From the NCBI GenBank assembly GCA_026399015.1, contig JAPLRS010000041.1:1-64000 (forward strand): 64,000 nucleotides of DNA, read 5' to 3'. This stretch comes from Methylococcales bacterium (GTDB lineage: Bacteria > Pseudomonadota > Gammaproteobacteria > Methylococcales > Methylomonadaceae). A program made the translations under genes and the position numbers. Within the stretch, counting starts at the first letter, position 1, and the number at the start of each line of letters is the position of its first letter. Shown one piece after another: positions 46,140-56,799 of this stretch. The notes below the pieces were generated by a model that saw only the letters and a program-made list of their open reading frames with translations, did no database searches and was not told the origin of the DNA.

Positions 46140-46469
46140 TTAAACTGTGCGAAGTAAACGTCTTATAAGTAGAGTTTTTAAGTCACGTCGAGCGTCTACA
46201 ATAATATGGATATACAAAATATCTTGCCGTACTTCATAAATGATGCGATTCATTCCGGAGATAATTTGTCGATATTGACTAATATTAAGTCTTTCGAATT
46301 CTTCGGGAATAGCACCCGAATAAGGAAAATCACTCAGCACACGAATTGATTTTTTTAGGTTACCCAAAGTATCCTGCCAAGTTGAAATCGAGAATTGTTT
46401 AATGAGATAGACTCTGAGTTCTTTAATATCTTGTTCATCTGATGCCAGTATGACGATCTTAACGGTCAT
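46140..46469 (-). CDS. RelE/ParE-family toxin
   Basis: A 109-residue protein with the ParE/RelE fold: VKIVILASDEQDIKELRVYLI helix pair, SIRVLSDFPYSGAIPEEF, then the core strands YRQIISGMNRIIYEVRQDILYIHIIVDARRDLKTLL. Members either cleave mRNA on ribosomes (RelE) or inhibit gyrase (ParE); which one is not clear. It overlaps its antitoxin gene by 4 bases, in the normal antitoxin-first order. Complete. Confidence 0.85.
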   Translation of the reverse strand: MTVKIVILASDEQDIKELRVYLIKQFSISTWQDTLGNLKKSIRVLSDFPYSGAIPEEFERLNISQYRQIISGMNRIIYEVRQDILYIHIIVDARRDLKTLLIRRLLRTV

Positions 46470-46738
46470 TCTAGATCGACCTTATCTAACTCCTCAAATA
46501 CATCCTCAATATCACGAAATTTTCCTTGTTCTATTTCATGATTCCCTAGCGCAAGAATCTTGAGTAAAGCCAAAGTTTCCTCTTGCTCTTCATACGTTTT
46601 AATATCCAAAACAACAAGCTTTGCTTCACCATTTTGAGTTATGAGTAAAGGCTCTCTTGATTCGGAAATGTTTTTTACAATTTCAGCCGTATGGCTTTTA
46701 AGATAACTGATAGGTCTGATTTGGGATGAAAACTTCAT
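46466..46738 (-). CDS. Phd/YefM-family antitoxin
   Basis: A 90-residue protein whose first 60 residues are a Phd/YefM fold (IRPISYLKSHTAEIVKNISESREPLLITQNGEAKLVVLD). The C-terminal tail (LKILALGNHEIEQGKFRDIEDVFEEL) is acidic and would wrap the toxin. It autoregulates in known systems. First gene of the pair; the IS3 remnant lies just upstream in the opposite direction. Confidence 0.88.
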   Translation of the reverse strand: MKFSSQIRPISYLKSHTAEIVKNISESREPLLITQNGEAKLVVLDIKTYEEQEETLALLKILALGNHEIEQGKFRDIEDVFEELDKVDLE

Positions 46739-51347: not shown

Positions 51348-52634
51348 ATGTCAATTAAGCCAACCACTGCTCTAACTCGCCTCAGTAAGCCACGCATAGC
51401 GTTAGGTTTGGGCTTGTTGCTGACTGTTGTTTTGGCCATTTTCACACAATTTACGACAATGGACCTGATCGGTTGGTCTAGCGGTTTTACGCATCCTTTA
51501 CATGGTTCTGATCATTTATTAGCTATGCTAGCTGTCGGTATCTGGGCAGCACAACTGCGCGGTTCAGCTATCTGGTTATTACCACTTACTTTTGTTGGCG
51601 TAATGAGTTTAGGTGGTCTGGTTGGCGCAACAGGCATTTTATTACCCGGCGCAGAAGCCATTATCTTTTGTTCTTGTATAGCGTTTATCGGCCTTATTTT
51701 TAAACGCATACGCTTTAGTCACCCAATCAATGTAGGTATAGTAGCGTTTTTTGCTTTCTTTCATGGCTTTGCACATGGCCAAGAGATATCAACTTCTGCC
51801 AGCTTAATCTCTTATACCCTAGGTTTTATGGTAGCAACGCTATTATTGCATGGTACTGGTATTATTATTGTGCGATTATTAATTGCTGTTTTTGCATTAT
51901 TTTTGAGTCATGCTGTTTATCCAGAACCACTACAAAATAATGATGCTGTCCTCAGTATAAAAACCTCAGCCACAGTATCTACTATTTATACTCTTGAAAA
52001 CAGTACCCATTTAAACGCAAATCCTGATTCAGCATCCGTACAAGATATAACGCAAGCGGTTAATCCACCACCTATAATAGCCACGGATCATCCGAGTAAT
52101 TTGAATAAAGCATTTAACACGGTGCTATTCATCACAGAAAGCGCCTTATTTAAATTTAGTGCATTTAATTATCAAACAGGTATCGATTTTTTAACCAACG
52201 GCGTAGGTTTAACTTCGCCCCCGTTATGGCTGACTTTGTCTAAACTTTGTTATTTTGACTCCCCAGTTATTAACTACTTCAGCCTTTCCTTTCTTAGCGA
52301 TAGACTTCTCTCATCTCTCTATCACTACACCCGCTTACAAAATCTTTACTTACTCGCAACTAGCTTTTTAACAAACGGCGTTGGTGCAACCTCACCCCCA
52401 ACTTCTGATCTAGTTGTTATCGTTGTATTCCTCTGCTGCATTGTTACCGCATTTTATTTTTCTTCTGTTTTAAAAAACCTCAGATTGCCGCTTGCAATCA
52501 AACAACTCGTTTTCAGTAATTCTCAACTTCAGCCGTGCTTCTTGCTAACAGACGGGCAACTCGCCTATCACACGACCGAATTGGCCATCAAAAATAATAA
52601 TAAATATTGGACCTTTAAAGGATTGTCATCATGA
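51348..52634 (+). CDS. HupE/UreJ-like membrane protein with long C-terminal extension
   Basis: Residues 1-190 are a HupE/UreJ_2-type permease: a hydrophobic first helix, FTHPLHGSDHLLAMLAVG at 47-64 and FFHGFAHGQE at 137-146, both carrying the conserved histidines thought to bind metal. HupE proteins are normally about 200 residues; this one has 428. The extra part has a polar linker, two copies of FLTNGVGxTSPP (281-292 and 340-351) and a further membrane helix (about 355-373). Its stop overlaps the TonB-receptor start (ATGA). The family is linked to nickel or cobalt; the substrate here is unknown. A later fusion or decay of a second gene could also explain the tail. Confidence 0.75.
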   Translation: MSIKPTTALTRLSKPRIALGLGLLLTVVLAIFTQFTTMDLIGWSSGFTHPLHGSDHLLAMLAVGIWAAQLRGSAIWLLPLTFVGVMSLGGLVGATGILLPGAEAIIFCSCIAFIGLIFKRIRFSHPINVGIVAFFAFFHGFAHGQEISTSASLISYTLGFMVATLLLHGTGIIIVRLLIAVFALFLSHAVYPEPLQNNDAVLSIKTSATVSTIYTLENSTHLNANPDSASVQDITQAVNPPPIIATDHPSNLNKAFNTVLFITESALFKFSAFNYQTGIDFLTNGVGLTSPPLWLTLSKLCYFDSPVINYFSLSFLSDRLLSSLYHYTRLQNLYLLATSFLTNGVGATSPPTSDLVVIVVFLCCIVTAFYFSSVLKNLRLPLAIKQLVFSNSQLQPCFLLTDGQLAYHTTELAIKNNNKYWTFKGLSS

Positions 52635-54934
52635 CCCGACAAATAATAAATTCTGCGCAGCAATTAGTATTAAAAAGCCAGGCTCGACAACTACAAAAAG
52701 CCGGCCTGATCCTATTTGCTTGTAGTTTTCTATTGGGTTTTAGTCATTTCTCTCAGGCAGTAGAAAACACACCTGAGACCCAAGAAAAAAGTGCGTCGCA
52801 ACATTCGATTACAAACACAAGCGCTGAAGATACAAAACTAATAGACGCCAAAAAACCAATTAAAAAAGCGCCTAAAGCCAGTAAGAAAAACCCAAAGACC
52901 GATACCATTGAACTTAAAGACATGGTTATTCGTGAAGATGCCCGCGCCAAAAACCTCATCGGAATTACCGGCTCAGCCTCGCAAGGAGAAGTTAACCAAG
53001 CCCAGTTTCAATATCGCCCACTGTCCAGAAATGGTGAGGTATTAGAAGTAGTACCCGGGGTTTTAGCAACCCAACACAGCGGTTCAGGTAAAGCCAACCA
53101 ATATTTTTTACGTGGTTTTAACTTAGACCACGGCACAGACTTTACTACTTATGTGGACGGCATTCCGATGAATATGCCAACTCATGCCCATGGCCAAGGT
53201 TACATGGATGTTAATAGTGTTATTCCCGAATTAGTAAAAAATATTGAATACGGTAAAGGACCTTATTATGCAGAGGTAGGGGATTTTTCTGCAGCAGGTT
53301 ATTCAAAGTTATTCAGCATGGATACGTTACCTAATGGGATTGCCAAATTTACGGCCGGTGAGTTTGATTATTACCGAACCCTAGTAGCAAACTCTCACAA
53401 GGTCGGTGAAGGTAACTTGCTGTACGGTGGTGAGTTCAATCTTTATAACGGTGTTTGGCAACAGCCCGAAGACTCTAAAAAGTTTAATGGCATGTTGCGT
53501 TATAGCATCGACAAAGATAATTGGGGGTCATCTATCAATGCTAAAGCTTATAACAATGCCTGGACTGCAACCAATCAGATTGCCCAAACCTCTATTGATA
53601 AAGGTGATCTAGGTCTTTATGGCACTATGGATCCAACAGATGGTGGCACAACTAACCGCTACAGTTTGTCGAGTAATATTTGGAACAAAGGCACAGGCTG
53701 GAAAAATGACGCGAATATTTACGCCCTTTATTCTGATGTTGATCTTTATTCAAACTTTACCGGCTATTTAGATAACCCCGTCACTGGCGACCAAATCCAT
53801 CAATTTGAGAAGCGCGTCCAAACCGGTGGCAATATTGAACATACTCGCTATAACAAATTGTTTAATATCGATATGGACAACAGCTACGGCTTACAATTTA
53901 GACATGATAGCATCATGAATGTTGGCCTAGACCATACCCAAAACAGACAATATTTAAGTACTGTGAGTCATGATGATGTTAGCCAAAGTACCGGTGGCGC
54001 TTACTTTAAAAACCAAACTTATTGGCATGAAAAAGTGCGCACTACGGTTGGTTTAAGAGGCGACTTTATCAATAATGATGTCACCGTATTGGATACTACT
54101 ACTCATAATCCACTGATAAATGCCGGCAATTCTGGCACATCTGGCCAAGGTGTGTTTAGTCCAAAAGTTGGCTTAGTATTAGGCCCTTGGCACAACACTG
54201 AATACTTTGTAAATGGCGGTTATGGTTATCATTCAAATGATGCCAGAGGTACTACCTTACAATTTAATCCCAGTGATGGTAATGCATTAGGTGCAAATTC
54301 AAGACGTATTTCGCCTATGGCTCAATCACGTGGTGCAGAAACAGGTATTCGCAGTAATTTTATTAAAAACTTAAACAGTACCATCGCATTTTGGTGGTTA
54401 GAAAGTAGCCAAGAACTTGTCTTTAAGGGTGACCAAGGCAATACCGAAATTAATGGCAAATCTAATCGTTATGGTGTTGAATTTACTAACTACTACAAAG
54501 CGACAGAATGGTTAACTTTAGATGCCGATTTTGCGTTTACCTCTGCACACTTTGCTCAAACCCCTGTGGGTGAAACAAACAGTTACATCCCTAATTCAGT
54601 AGGAAGAGTGATTACCACCGGCGCTACTGTAGTCGCACCCAACGGCTTATTTGGTTCAGTGCGCTTACGACACTTTGGTGAAGTACCGTTGGATAAATCC
54701 GGTTCATTTTGGGCAGGTGATACCACCATTGTTAACTTAAGCTCCGGTTATCAACAAAAACGCTTTAAGCTTGAAATTGATGTGTTTAATATTTTTGGCT
54801 CCAACGCCAATGACATAGCCTACGCTTATGACTATCGCTATCCATCTGGCGCAGGTACTGATCCTCAATATGGCATTATGAAGCACCCTGTTGAACCCAG
54901 AATGGTGAGAGGCACCATCACTGTTAATTTTTAA
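52631..54934 (+). CDS. TonB-dependent outer-membrane receptor
   Basis: A 767-residue receptor that imports a scarce solute at the cost of the proton-motive force. A signal segment (AGLILFACSFLLGFSHFSQA, about 28-47) is followed by a Lys-rich linker with a TonB-box-like DTIELKDMVIRED. The plug (PLSRNGEVLEVVPGVLATQHSGSGKANQYFLRGFNLDH) carries a THAHGQGY His patch near residue 190. A 22-strand-type barrel ends in aromatic RGTITVNF. This plug subfamily lacks siderophore hallmarks. Coupled by 4 bases to the HupE-like gene and followed at once by its own tonB-exbB-exbD, so the set is dedicated. A metal ion or small metallophore is the likeliest cargo. Confidence 0.9.
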   Translation: MTRQIINSAQQLVLKSQARQLQKAGLILFACSFLLGFSHFSQAVENTPETQEKSASQHSITNTSAEDTKLIDAKKPIKKAPKASKKNPKTDTIELKDMVIREDARAKNLIGITGSASQGEVNQAQFQYRPLSRNGEVLEVVPGVLATQHSGSGKANQYFLRGFNLDHGTDFTTYVDGIPMNMPTHAHGQGYMDVNSVIPELVKNIEYGKGPYYAEVGDFSAAGYSKLFSMDTLPNGIAKFTAGEFDYYRTLVANSHKVGEGNLLYGGEFNLYNGVWQQPEDSKKFNGMLRYSIDKDNWGSSINAKAYNNAWTATNQIAQTSIDKGDLGLYGTMDPTDGGTTNRYSLSSNIWNKGTGWKNDANIYALYSDVDLYSNFTGYLDNPVTGDQIHQFEKRVQTGGNIEHTRYNKLFNIDMDNSYGLQFRHDSIMNVGLDHTQNRQYLSTVSHDDVSQSTGGAYFKNQTYWHEKVRTTVGLRGDFINNDVTVLDTTTHNPLINAGNSGTSGQGVFSPKVGLVLGPWHNTEYFVNGGYGYHSNDARGTTLQFNPSDGNALGANSRRISPMAQSRGAETGIRSNFIKNLNSTIAFWWLESSQELVFKGDQGNTEINGKSNRYGVEFTNYYKATEWLTLDADFAFTSAHFAQTPVGETNSYIPNSVGRVITTGATVVAPNGLFGSVRLRHFGEVPLDKSGSFWAGDTTIVNLSSGYQQKRFKLEIDVFNIFGSNANDIAYAYDYRYPSGAGTDPQYGIMKHPVEPRMVRGTITVNF

Positions 54935-54935
54935 G

Positions 54936-55688
54936 ATGACCTCAAATAACATGTCACTAATAAAAACAGCTCAATTTGATAACGTGAGTTTTAACCCTCT
55001 CGTTTCTAAAAAGAAACAGCACATAATTGCCAGCAGCACTTTTGGTGTGGTTGTGTTGTTACACCTTTGCGTGGCCATTTATTTGATAAAGCGCCCTGAG
55101 GTTAAAGAGGTAAAGCCTATCTTTACCATGGCCGTGGAAATGACTAATGCCCAAAAAACTGAGACAAAAACAGTCACTCCACCTGCGCCACCGGTTATAA
55201 AAGCGCCCGAAAAGCCTAAACCTATTAAGCCGCAACCCATTATTAAAAAAACGGAACCTGTTTTGCCAAAAGCAAAAGAGGCTGAACCAATCCCCATGGC
55301 CACAAAAACACCTGTTGCTTCACCACCGGTATCAACACCCTCCCCAGTAACGCCATCTAGTTCGGTCAGCGCCACACCGACCAGCAATAAAGCAAACACA
55401 TCGACACCTACTGTCAGTTCGGGGGTAGTTCCTATTTCACGCGTAGAAGCAGAATACCCGGCTATTGCAAAACGCCGAGAAATAGAAGGTTGGGTAAAAA
55501 TTGAATTTTCTATTACGCCAGATGGCTCTGTTGAAAATGCCGTTGTTGTTGATGCAGAACCAGAAAACATCTTTAACGAATCTGCACTAACAGCCATTGA
55601 ACAATGGAAATTTAAAGGAAAAATCGTGGATGGCGTCGCAGTCAGTCAGCGCGCAGTTCAGAAACTCCAATTTAAACTTGAACACTAA
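54936..55688 (+). CDS. tonB: TonB energy-transducing protein
   Basis: Connects the ExbBD motor to the receptor. The 250-residue protein has a single N-terminal membrane helix (FGVVVLLHLCVAIYLIKRP, about 32-50), a periplasm-spanning Pro/Lys-rich stretch (PPAPPVIKAPEKPKPIKPQP) and a TonB C-terminal domain (YPAIAKRREIEGWVKIEFSITPDGSV...ESALTAIEQWKF). One base separates it from the receptor's stop codon. Dedicated to this locus by position. Confidence 0.92.
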   Translation: MTSNNMSLIKTAQFDNVSFNPLVSKKKQHIIASSTFGVVVLLHLCVAIYLIKRPEVKEVKPIFTMAVEMTNAQKTETKTVTPPAPPVIKAPEKPKPIKPQPIIKKTEPVLPKAKEAEPIPMATKTPVASPPVSTPSPVTPSSSVSATPTSNKANTSTPTVSSGVVPISRVEAEYPAIAKRREIEGWVKIEFSITPDGSVENAVVVDAEPENIFNESALTAIEQWKFKGKIVDGVAVSQRAVQKLQFKLEH

Positions 55689-55722: not shown

Positions 55723-56376
55723 ATGCTTGATAACATTTCACCTCAAATCATCATAGACGGCACACTCTATACGCTGATCTTTTTTTCAGTGGTTACTTGG
55801 ACGCTTATTCTCTTTAAGACTTGGCAATTTATGCATAATGAGCGTTGCAACAAACGCTTCGAAGCTGACTTTTGGCGTCTTGCAGATTTAAAACAACTTA
55901 AAAACTTACCTGCAGAAATAGCTTTAGGTACTAAAGCGCGTCTTGCTTATATTGGTACTACTTGGTTAGAAGAAAACCAACAATCTGCCGGCAAACAACT
56001 TAAACATACGGGCGATATCACGGAATTATTAGAACAAGAATTACGCGGCCAATTACAAAAAGAACAACACTCATTAGAAAATGGCTTAACCCTATTAGCC
56101 AGTATTGGTAGTACTGCGCCATTTGTGGGTTTATTTGGTACGGTTTTAGGTATTATGCATGCCATGCATGAAATTACTGCAAGTGGTTCAACGAGTTTAG
56201 ATGTTGTCGCTGGCCCAATTGGTGATGCCTTAGTGGCTACGGCAATTGGTATTGCGGTGGCGGTTCCTGCAGTATTAGCTTATAACTTTGCCCTTCGCCA
56301 ATTAAAAATTCAACGCTCTGATATGGAAAACTTTGTCGCTACTTTTATGACAGTAGCTCTTACCAACAAAAGTTAA
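55723..56376 (+). CDS. exbB: ExbB proton-channel protein
   Basis: MotA/TolQ/ExbB-family inner-membrane protein, 217 residues, three membrane helices (about 14-32, 118-142, 160-185). LASIGSTAPFVGLFGTVLGIMHAMHEI and PIGDALVATAIGIAVAVPAVLAYNF are the conserved helices 2 and 3. It powers TonB together with ExbD. An SD-like AAGGAAA precedes the ATG. Third-last gene of the operon. Confidence 0.93.
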   Translation: MLDNISPQIIIDGTLYTLIFFSVVTWTLILFKTWQFMHNERCNKRFEADFWRLADLKQLKNLPAEIALGTKARLAYIGTTWLEENQQSAGKQLKHTGDITELLEQELRGQLQKEQHSLENGLTLLASIGSTAPFVGLFGTVLGIMHAMHEITASGSTSLDVVAGPIGDALVATAIGIAVAVPAVLAYNFALRQLKIQRSDMENFVATFMTVALTNKS

Positions 56377-56388
56377 TAGGACTGAATC

Positions 56389-56799
56389 ATGGCTTTTAAA
56401 CCACAATCAGAAGATGAAAGCGCTTTAAGTGATATTAACGTGACGCCTCTTGTAGATGTCATGTTGGTACTGGTGATTATTTTATTAGTCACGGCGCCGC
56501 TACTGACGCAATCCGTGCATGTTAGTTTACCTAAAACAACCCAAACCACCGCTGATATCCATAAACAGCCCTTACAATTAGGTATTGATGCTCAAGGCGC
56601 TATTACGCTAAATAAAACCTCCATTACGGACTTAGGGGCGCTTGAAAGTAATTTAAAAACAGAACTAGAAAAAGACCCAGAAATTAGCGTACATTTATAC
56701 GCTGATAAAGCGGTTGTTTATGAAAAACTTGCGCAAGTCATGGCCACAGTTCAACATGTTGGTATTACTAAAATGGCATTTGTTTCAATAGAACAATAA
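56389..56799 (+). CDS. exbD: ExbD proton-channel protein
   Basis: Partner of ExbB, 136 residues. The N-terminal cytoplasmic tail leads into LSDINVTPLVDVMLVLVIILLVTAPLL, a single membrane helix with the proton-carrying Asp (VDVMLVLV). A periplasmic domain follows. It is the last gene of the TonB operon and is followed by a bidirectional terminator. Complete and canonical. Confidence 0.94.
   Translation: MAFKPQSEDESALSDINVTPLVDVMLVLVIILLVTAPLLTQSVHVSLPKTTQTTADIHKQPLQLGIDAQGAITLNKTSITDLGALESNLKTELEKDPEISVHLYADKAVVYEKLAQVMATVQHVGITKMAFVSIEQ

Follow-up and report, generated by a model that had tools for sequence, protein, structure and literature searches.

The locus considered here raises the question of why a permease that heads a metal-transport operon should carry a second, C-terminal half of its own, and why a short motif within that half should be duplicated and so well conserved. 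In the window (the whole stretch of DNA that was analysed, 64,000 nucleotides) the tailed HupE is followed by a TonB-dependent receptor, TonB, and ExbB- and ExbD-like proteins (Table 1), with no intrinsic terminator or separate promoter exceeding the shuffle background. A preliminary description had divided the protein into a HupE/UreJ core of about 190 residues and a tail of about 240 with two copies of FLTNGVGxTSPP, and this is borne out by the open reading frame, the Pfam match and the motif positions (FLTNGVGLTSPP at residues 281-292, FLTNGVGATSPP at 340-351). The PF04955 match of 138 bits, against a cut-off of 23, assigns the core to the HupE/UreJ permeases, for which nickel or cobalt transport is the family expectation. 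For the tail, neither Pfam nor NCBIfam gave a match at E<=1, so that a known protein domain is rejected; no report of a HupE tail or of a HupE-receptor fusion was found in the open-access literature searched, and the tail is previously undescribed.

Table 1. Features of the HupE-tail operon in the window, and HupE-receptor fusions in other loci.
Feature	Position	Strand	Remarks
HupE + tail ORF	51348-52634	+	428 aa; as in the preliminary description
HupE/UreJ permease core, residues 1-189	51348..51914	+	PF04955 at residues 42-179, E 2.6e-40; dN/dS about 0.05-0.15
Last HupE helix, R176-A189, RLLIAVFALFLSHA	51873..51914	+	signal-peptide-like; possible signal peptidase I site SHA|VYP
Polar, fast-evolving linker	51915..52157	+	predicted periplasmic during synthesis; dN/dS about 0.4
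First putative arrest block, residues 271-292, ending FLTNGVGLTSPP	52158..52223	+	from entropy profile
C-over-G, rut-like coding stretch, first motif to stop codon	52224..52631	+	skew -0.33
Second motif copy FLTNGVGATSPP, residues 340-351	52365..52400	+	
TonB-dependent receptor	52631..54934	+	Plug PF07715, E 1.2e-13; start overlaps HupE stop by 4 nt (ATGA)
TonB	54936..55688	+	TonB_C PF03544, E 3.5e-19
ExbB-like	55723..56376	+	by sequence, without profile search; homologues after TonB in relatives
ExbD-like	56389..56799	+	by sequence, without profile search; homologue beside ExbB and TonB in L069
HupE-receptor fusions	L063:7419-10163, L071:5854-8583, L072:5800-8496, L074:869-3574		
Truncated HupE-receptor fusions	L013-L019, L021-L025, L065		

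Searches of 101 related genomes and of a species collection, in which the named relatives are Methylococcales including Methylobacter, returned about 40 non-redundant Methylococcales loci where HupE core and tail form a single ORF of 330-496 aa. The motif, [FL]L[ST][NS]GVGxTSPP, is single in most tails and double in a Methylobacter-type subgroup. As a DNA pattern, NGVGxTSPP has 12 matches in the 101 related genomes, all inside HupE tails (reversed control 0); a looser pattern gave 18 matches in the relatives (15 HupE tails and three others), its reversed control giving about 17, and when used to look for tail copies elsewhere in a class-wide sample it gave background only. It had been proposed that relatives encoding a short HupE and a separate gene would reduce the tail to a chance fusion. 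Stand-alone HupEs of about 190 aa do exist, but they form a separate clade of the HupE tree (98/97), and about 40 loci keep core and tail in one ORF; the tail is not a chance fusion.

Selection acts unevenly along the protein. By pairwise NG86 estimates, for which near-identical pairs are uninformative, dN/dS is about 0.0-0.17 in the core, where HPLHGSDH and FFHGFAHGQE are invariant or nearly so across 35 relatives. In most pairs the motif has a value of about 0-0.1, its changes falling nearly all at third positions, and the tail outside the motif one of about 0.3-0.55. Because the motif value of about 0-0.1 stands against about 0.4, the typical figure for the remainder of the tail, the motif is selected as a peptide, the rest of the tail being, on the same estimates, weakly constrained as protein. 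The two 36-nt copies in the window agree with this, as had been argued before: their seven differing sites comprise five synonymous third positions and two in a variable Leu/Ala codon.

The extent of the conserved element was obtained from an entropy profile of 34 non-redundant tails aligned at the last Pro of the first motif. Mean entropy is 1.18 bits at positions -22 to 0, compared to 3.34 upstream and 3.24 downstream; conservation is limited to about 22 residues, with the consensus ...PGxxFL[ST]NGVGxTSPP, and ends sharply at the Pro-Pro. About 22 residues is close to what the exit tunnel of the ribosome holds, a length shared by SecM and the RAPP peptides, and a conserved tunnel-length stretch ending at a putative stall codon is the general signature of an arrest peptide. 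The first motif ends 93-184 aa past the last HupE helix; at that distance the nascent chain could have engaged the translocon, and its exported part could be clear of both tunnel and translocon. The motif lacks the RAPP-type form, a R-A/G-P/G-P core at the C terminus, having instead a TSPP that lies 69-180 residues before the end; to our knowledge, known arrest motifs are located at the very end of the peptide. Both this placement and the difference between TSPP and the RAPP, RGPP and RAGP of demonstrated arrest peptides weaken a nascent-chain account.

Beyond the motif the nucleotide composition of the coding sequence changes. Mean G-C skew drops from +0.06 for the core to -0.05 for the linker and -0.28 beyond the motif. 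In 39/39 loci the post-motif value lies below that of the locus's own core; as the loci come mostly from one family and a few clades, they are not 39 independent tests. In 60-nt steps the fall, from -0.16 to -0.33, coincides with the end of the motif, and the skew is back to about 0 within 120 nt past the HupE stop, inside the receptor gene. Third codon positions after the motif have C 0.31 and G 0.14, compared to C 0.28 and G 0.26 in the core, and because G is depleted at these positions the bias is not just one of amino-acid usage. A skew of -0.28 is reached by 0.3% of 1256 300-nt windows from long ORFs of the same loci, a background set that may include spurious ORFs; we therefore added a stricter test within the window only, where the 408-nt tile at 52188 (the motif start) is the most C-skewed of 569 tiles from 44 non-overlapping genes. 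The strongest C skew in the window, -0.48, lies between the two motifs; its linker is already skewed at -0.25, and a mild negative linker skew is seen in some loci. Methylomonas-type loci, with a single motif, have their strongest skew after it. The composition change point lies a median of 79 nt from the motif end, compared to 195 nt for random tail points (0/2000), a comparison biased by the TSPP codons, whose own high C content draws the change point towards the motif. The post-motif mRNA, 200-540 nt in length, also folds more weakly than that of the core (-0.167 versus -0.263 kcal/mol/nt). RNA that is rich in C, poor in G and weakly folded, and that precedes the receptor gene, has the features of a Rho-dependent attenuator, and the stretch is a likely candidate for a Rho loading (rut) region. 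Other candidates for this part of the gene were rejected: an RNA element or riboswitch, with no Rfam match in the window or 11 relatives; a structured RNA, the post-motif fold having an unremarkable z of -0.84; and a hidden antisense gene, with no minus-strand ORF of at least 40 aa in the skewed region.

In nearly all tailed loci the next ORF is a TonB receptor or another TonB-system gene, close by or overlapping, and in most the receptor starts at -32 to +48 nt relative to the HupE stop; the tail goes with a neighbouring TonB-dependent receptor. There are other arrangements. In L044 (L044:3711-9654) a motif-bearing tailed HupE precedes ExbB-like, CobN-like and TonB receptor genes; in L042 the next gene is another HupE-like ORF, and the receptor lies about 3.7 kb further along; in L063 the gene after the tailed HupE is itself a HupE-receptor fusion. 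Two motif-less tails (L020:1477-2475 and L059:1643-3127) have no receptor gene next, TonB lying directly after that of L020. These two tails share IEKPPLIN[YH]S.QWL.LSPP, possibly another stall sequence, and the L059 ORF seems to run into a second HupE.

As a protein, the tail is predicted to be disordered rather than a folded domain. In an AlphaFold2 model based on a 35-sequence alignment, pLDDT is mostly about 60-84 in the core helices and below 50 at residues 196-246, 268-363 and 369-428, the linker also being mostly below 50 except for a helix at about 249-271; values this low nearly throughout speak against the folded C-terminal domain of the preliminary description. The second hydrophobic helix suggested there is present in the window tail as a stretch at about 353-372 (modelled as a helix at 355-371 with low confidence), but is not conserved among relatives. 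A metal site likewise finds no support: the motif is devoid of metal-ligand side chains, Cys does not occur in the window linker, and disorder is predicted for the tail. The linkers of relatives have no conserved Cys pair and, more generally, no conserved Cys/His pattern or metal-binding residues, so that the linker offers no candidate sensor, a point against a nascent-chain switch.

We suggest that the tail is a cis-acting nascent-chain regulatory module for the receptor gene, translated as an extension of the permease, a reading of the sequence patterns in which we place somewhat better than even confidence. Four observations point this way: the short conserved block with its sharp end at the Pro-Pro, the C-over-G stretch, the restriction of the motif to HupE tails that nearly always precede a separate receptor or TonB-system gene, and the lack of both motif and C-over-G stretch in 17 relatives whose HupE is fused to the same receptor family. 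The last HupE helix would insert N-in/C-out like a signal peptide, the linker would be exported, and once the ribosome had reached the end of the block of about 22 residues the nascent chain in the exit tunnel would stall it at the Pro-Pro. On the C-rich, G-poor, weakly folded 200-540 nt beyond the motif, Rho could load when no ribosomes follow. Sustained arrest would then end transcription before the receptor gene and would also deprive the receptor of a translation-coupled start; with arrest relieved, ribosomes would cover the stretch and the receptor would be made. Candidates for the relieving signal are the export pull on the tail, the insertion of HupE and metal status. Given such a nascent-chain mechanism, arrest would probably switch the receptor off; this is the simplest reading, as most of the skewed region follows the motif and the receptor starts so close to the HupE stop. 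The same module could also work with the opposite sign, stalled and queued ribosomes shielding the mRNA from Rho so that arrest switches the receptor on, as in the CruR and TnaC models; CruR has been so modelled for a TonB receptor (PMC9426467), and the part of the window with a skew of -0.48 could be covered by ribosomes queued at the second motif. We consider this unlikely, as the C-over-G bias lies mostly downstream of the motif, where a stalled ribosome exposes the RNA, and as the single-motif Methylomonas-type loci are most skewed there.

The closest known system is the copper-responsive CruR/CutF. CruR (DUF2946) is the uORF of bfrG in Bordetella pertussis, where RAPP and Rho control a TonB receptor (PMC9426467). 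Like the tailed HupE, it is exported, has a conserved Pro-Pro motif and a C-over-G, rut-like region, and is the product of the first gene in the operon of a TonB-dependent metal transporter. CruR is, however, a small dedicated uORF with CXXC, RAPP near the C terminus and an intergenic gap of 162 nt (PMC9426467), whereas the HupE tail is grafted onto a permease, carries GVGxTSPP well before its end with the skew after the motif, and has no CXXC, no RAPP, no DUF2946 match and nearly no intergenic gap. Membership of DUF2946 was rejected, with no PF11162 match in the tail (E<=1) or in the source genome (2.70 Mb, 86% complete), as was a CruR/CutF copper motif (CXXC/CXXXC) upstream of the stall motif, the window linker being free of Cys. 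CutF of Rhodobacter capsulatus, which reportedly acts by opening a stem-loop in the RNA over the start of cutO (PMC9973294), is likewise exported and has a putative stall motif rich in proline, the nascent protein controlling the next, metal-related gene; in the HupE tail, by contrast, the distance from the motif to the next start is 200-540 nt. ApdA, ApdP and SecM share with the tail a conserved tunnel-length block with a final proline, export and an upstream position (PMC10951233; PMC12992588), the tail differing from them in its TSPP core, its non-C-terminal and as yet putative stall, and its presumed target, a receptor rather than the Sec machinery. RAPP/RGPP uORFs are enriched upstream of TonB receptors (PMC12992588). 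In E. coli reporters without EF-P, a Pro-Pro stall with a downstream rut causes Rho-dependent loss of expression (PMC5021804).

A different arrangement of the same genes is seen in 17 loci, where the HupE core and the same receptor family are fused in one ORF of up to 915 aa, with HupE_UreJ, Plug and TonB barrel profiles all within the single protein. These fused forms occur in Methylococcales, one other gammaproteobacterium and two Verrucomicrobiota, and the AlphaFold2 model of a Methylococcaceae fusion (mean pLDDT 65) consists of a helical bundle followed by a barrel, its fold neighbours being TonB-dependent transporters such as PqqU/YncD, FecA and OprC. Whether tailed or fused, these proteins have a last helix that terminates in small residues with A-x-A spacing (AYA|Q, ALA|K, NA|Q; AYAQ, NAQE, ALAK), a signal-peptidase-like ending that was not found in stand-alone HupEs, where the chain simply ends. 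By eye, the A-x-A type site is clear in most tailed and fused relatives and weak in the window. A periplasmic location of the C terminus agrees with the topology of HupE, and from the helix endings we infer that signal peptidase may cleave here; an internal signal peptide is the only evident route of the fused barrel to the outer membrane. FbcH, the Bradyrhizobium cytochrome b/c1 polyprotein, is an inner-membrane protein whose later segment has an internal signal peptide and thus provides a precedent for the fusions, but both of its products serve in one inner-membrane complex, whereas the second part of the HupE fusion is an outer-membrane barrel. Stand-alone HupE/UreJ Ni/Co permeases (PF04955) have the same core fold and His motifs, and neither the signal-peptidase-like site nor the tail. 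The putative site preceding the tail would also suit a tail that signal peptidase releases and that serves, once exported, as a peptide or small protein in the role of substrate, signal or chelator, the motif then marking it for proteolysis or secretion, but a fast-evolving, disordered and length-variable tail fits this poorly and the nucleotide-level skew would go unexplained, which makes it very improbable.

All 17 fused forms are without the motif and without the C-over-G region. This bears on the function first proposed for the motif, that of a peptide in the periplasm which binds metal or docks onto TonB or the receptor plug; such a role would account for its conservation as a peptide, the expected periplasmic location of the tail and the receptor gene that is nearly always adjacent. 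We regard it as improbable: a docking peptide should still be useful in a receptor-fused HupE, the motif offers no metal ligands, and both the C-over-G region and the abrupt end of conservation at the Pro-Pro would be left unexplained. In the HupE tree the tailed forms are nested among the fused forms, with several forks open, and because of this nesting we suggest that the split, tailed form derives from the fused one. The same nesting would agree with a tail that is nothing but the decaying remnant of the gap left by the split of an ancestral fusion, which is nevertheless extremely doubtful, given the strong purifying selection on the motif and the persistence of open frame and skew at near-saturating divergence in about 40 loci. 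Taken together with the nascent-chain module favoured above, a further-reaching scenario is that PGxxFL[ST]NGVGxTSPP is an arrest motif of a new class which, with a built-in rut, controls the receptor from within a functional permease, and that it arose by the split of a single-ORF permease-receptor fusion joined by an internal signal peptide; this we put forward tentatively, at a little short of an even chance.

The neighbouring genes point to more than one metal. CopC lies within the available flank of about half of the long-flanked tail loci, and pmoCAB lies near the CopC cluster in one tail locus (L041); the CopC, HupE_UreJ_2 and pmo neighbours suggest copper. Homologues of the receptor adjoin HoxN in Cupriavidus, NikR in Methylomagnum and cobalamin genes in Methylorubrum, neighbours that suggest nickel or cobalt. 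The recurrent neighbour cluster consists of CopC, a lipoprotein-like protein of about 220 aa without known family, HupE_UreJ_2 and a BNR-repeat protein, and clusters of this type were seen in L033, L035, L041, L045, L049, L050, L051, L061, L063, L068, L070 and others.

If the regulatory account is true, nascent-chain control of a partner gene would not be confined to disposable leader peptides but could also be built into a working transporter; the stall motif would fall outside the RAPP family, and the rut region would be part of the coding sequence itself. The HupE-receptor fusions would place inner- and outer-membrane transport steps on one chain, presumably separated at the internal signal peptide, and both claims bear on the supply of metal for methane oxidation. 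Elsewhere in the window, at 46140-46738 on the minus strand, two small adjoining ORFs resemble, by eye, a RelE/ParE-type toxin and a Phd/YefM-type antitoxin.
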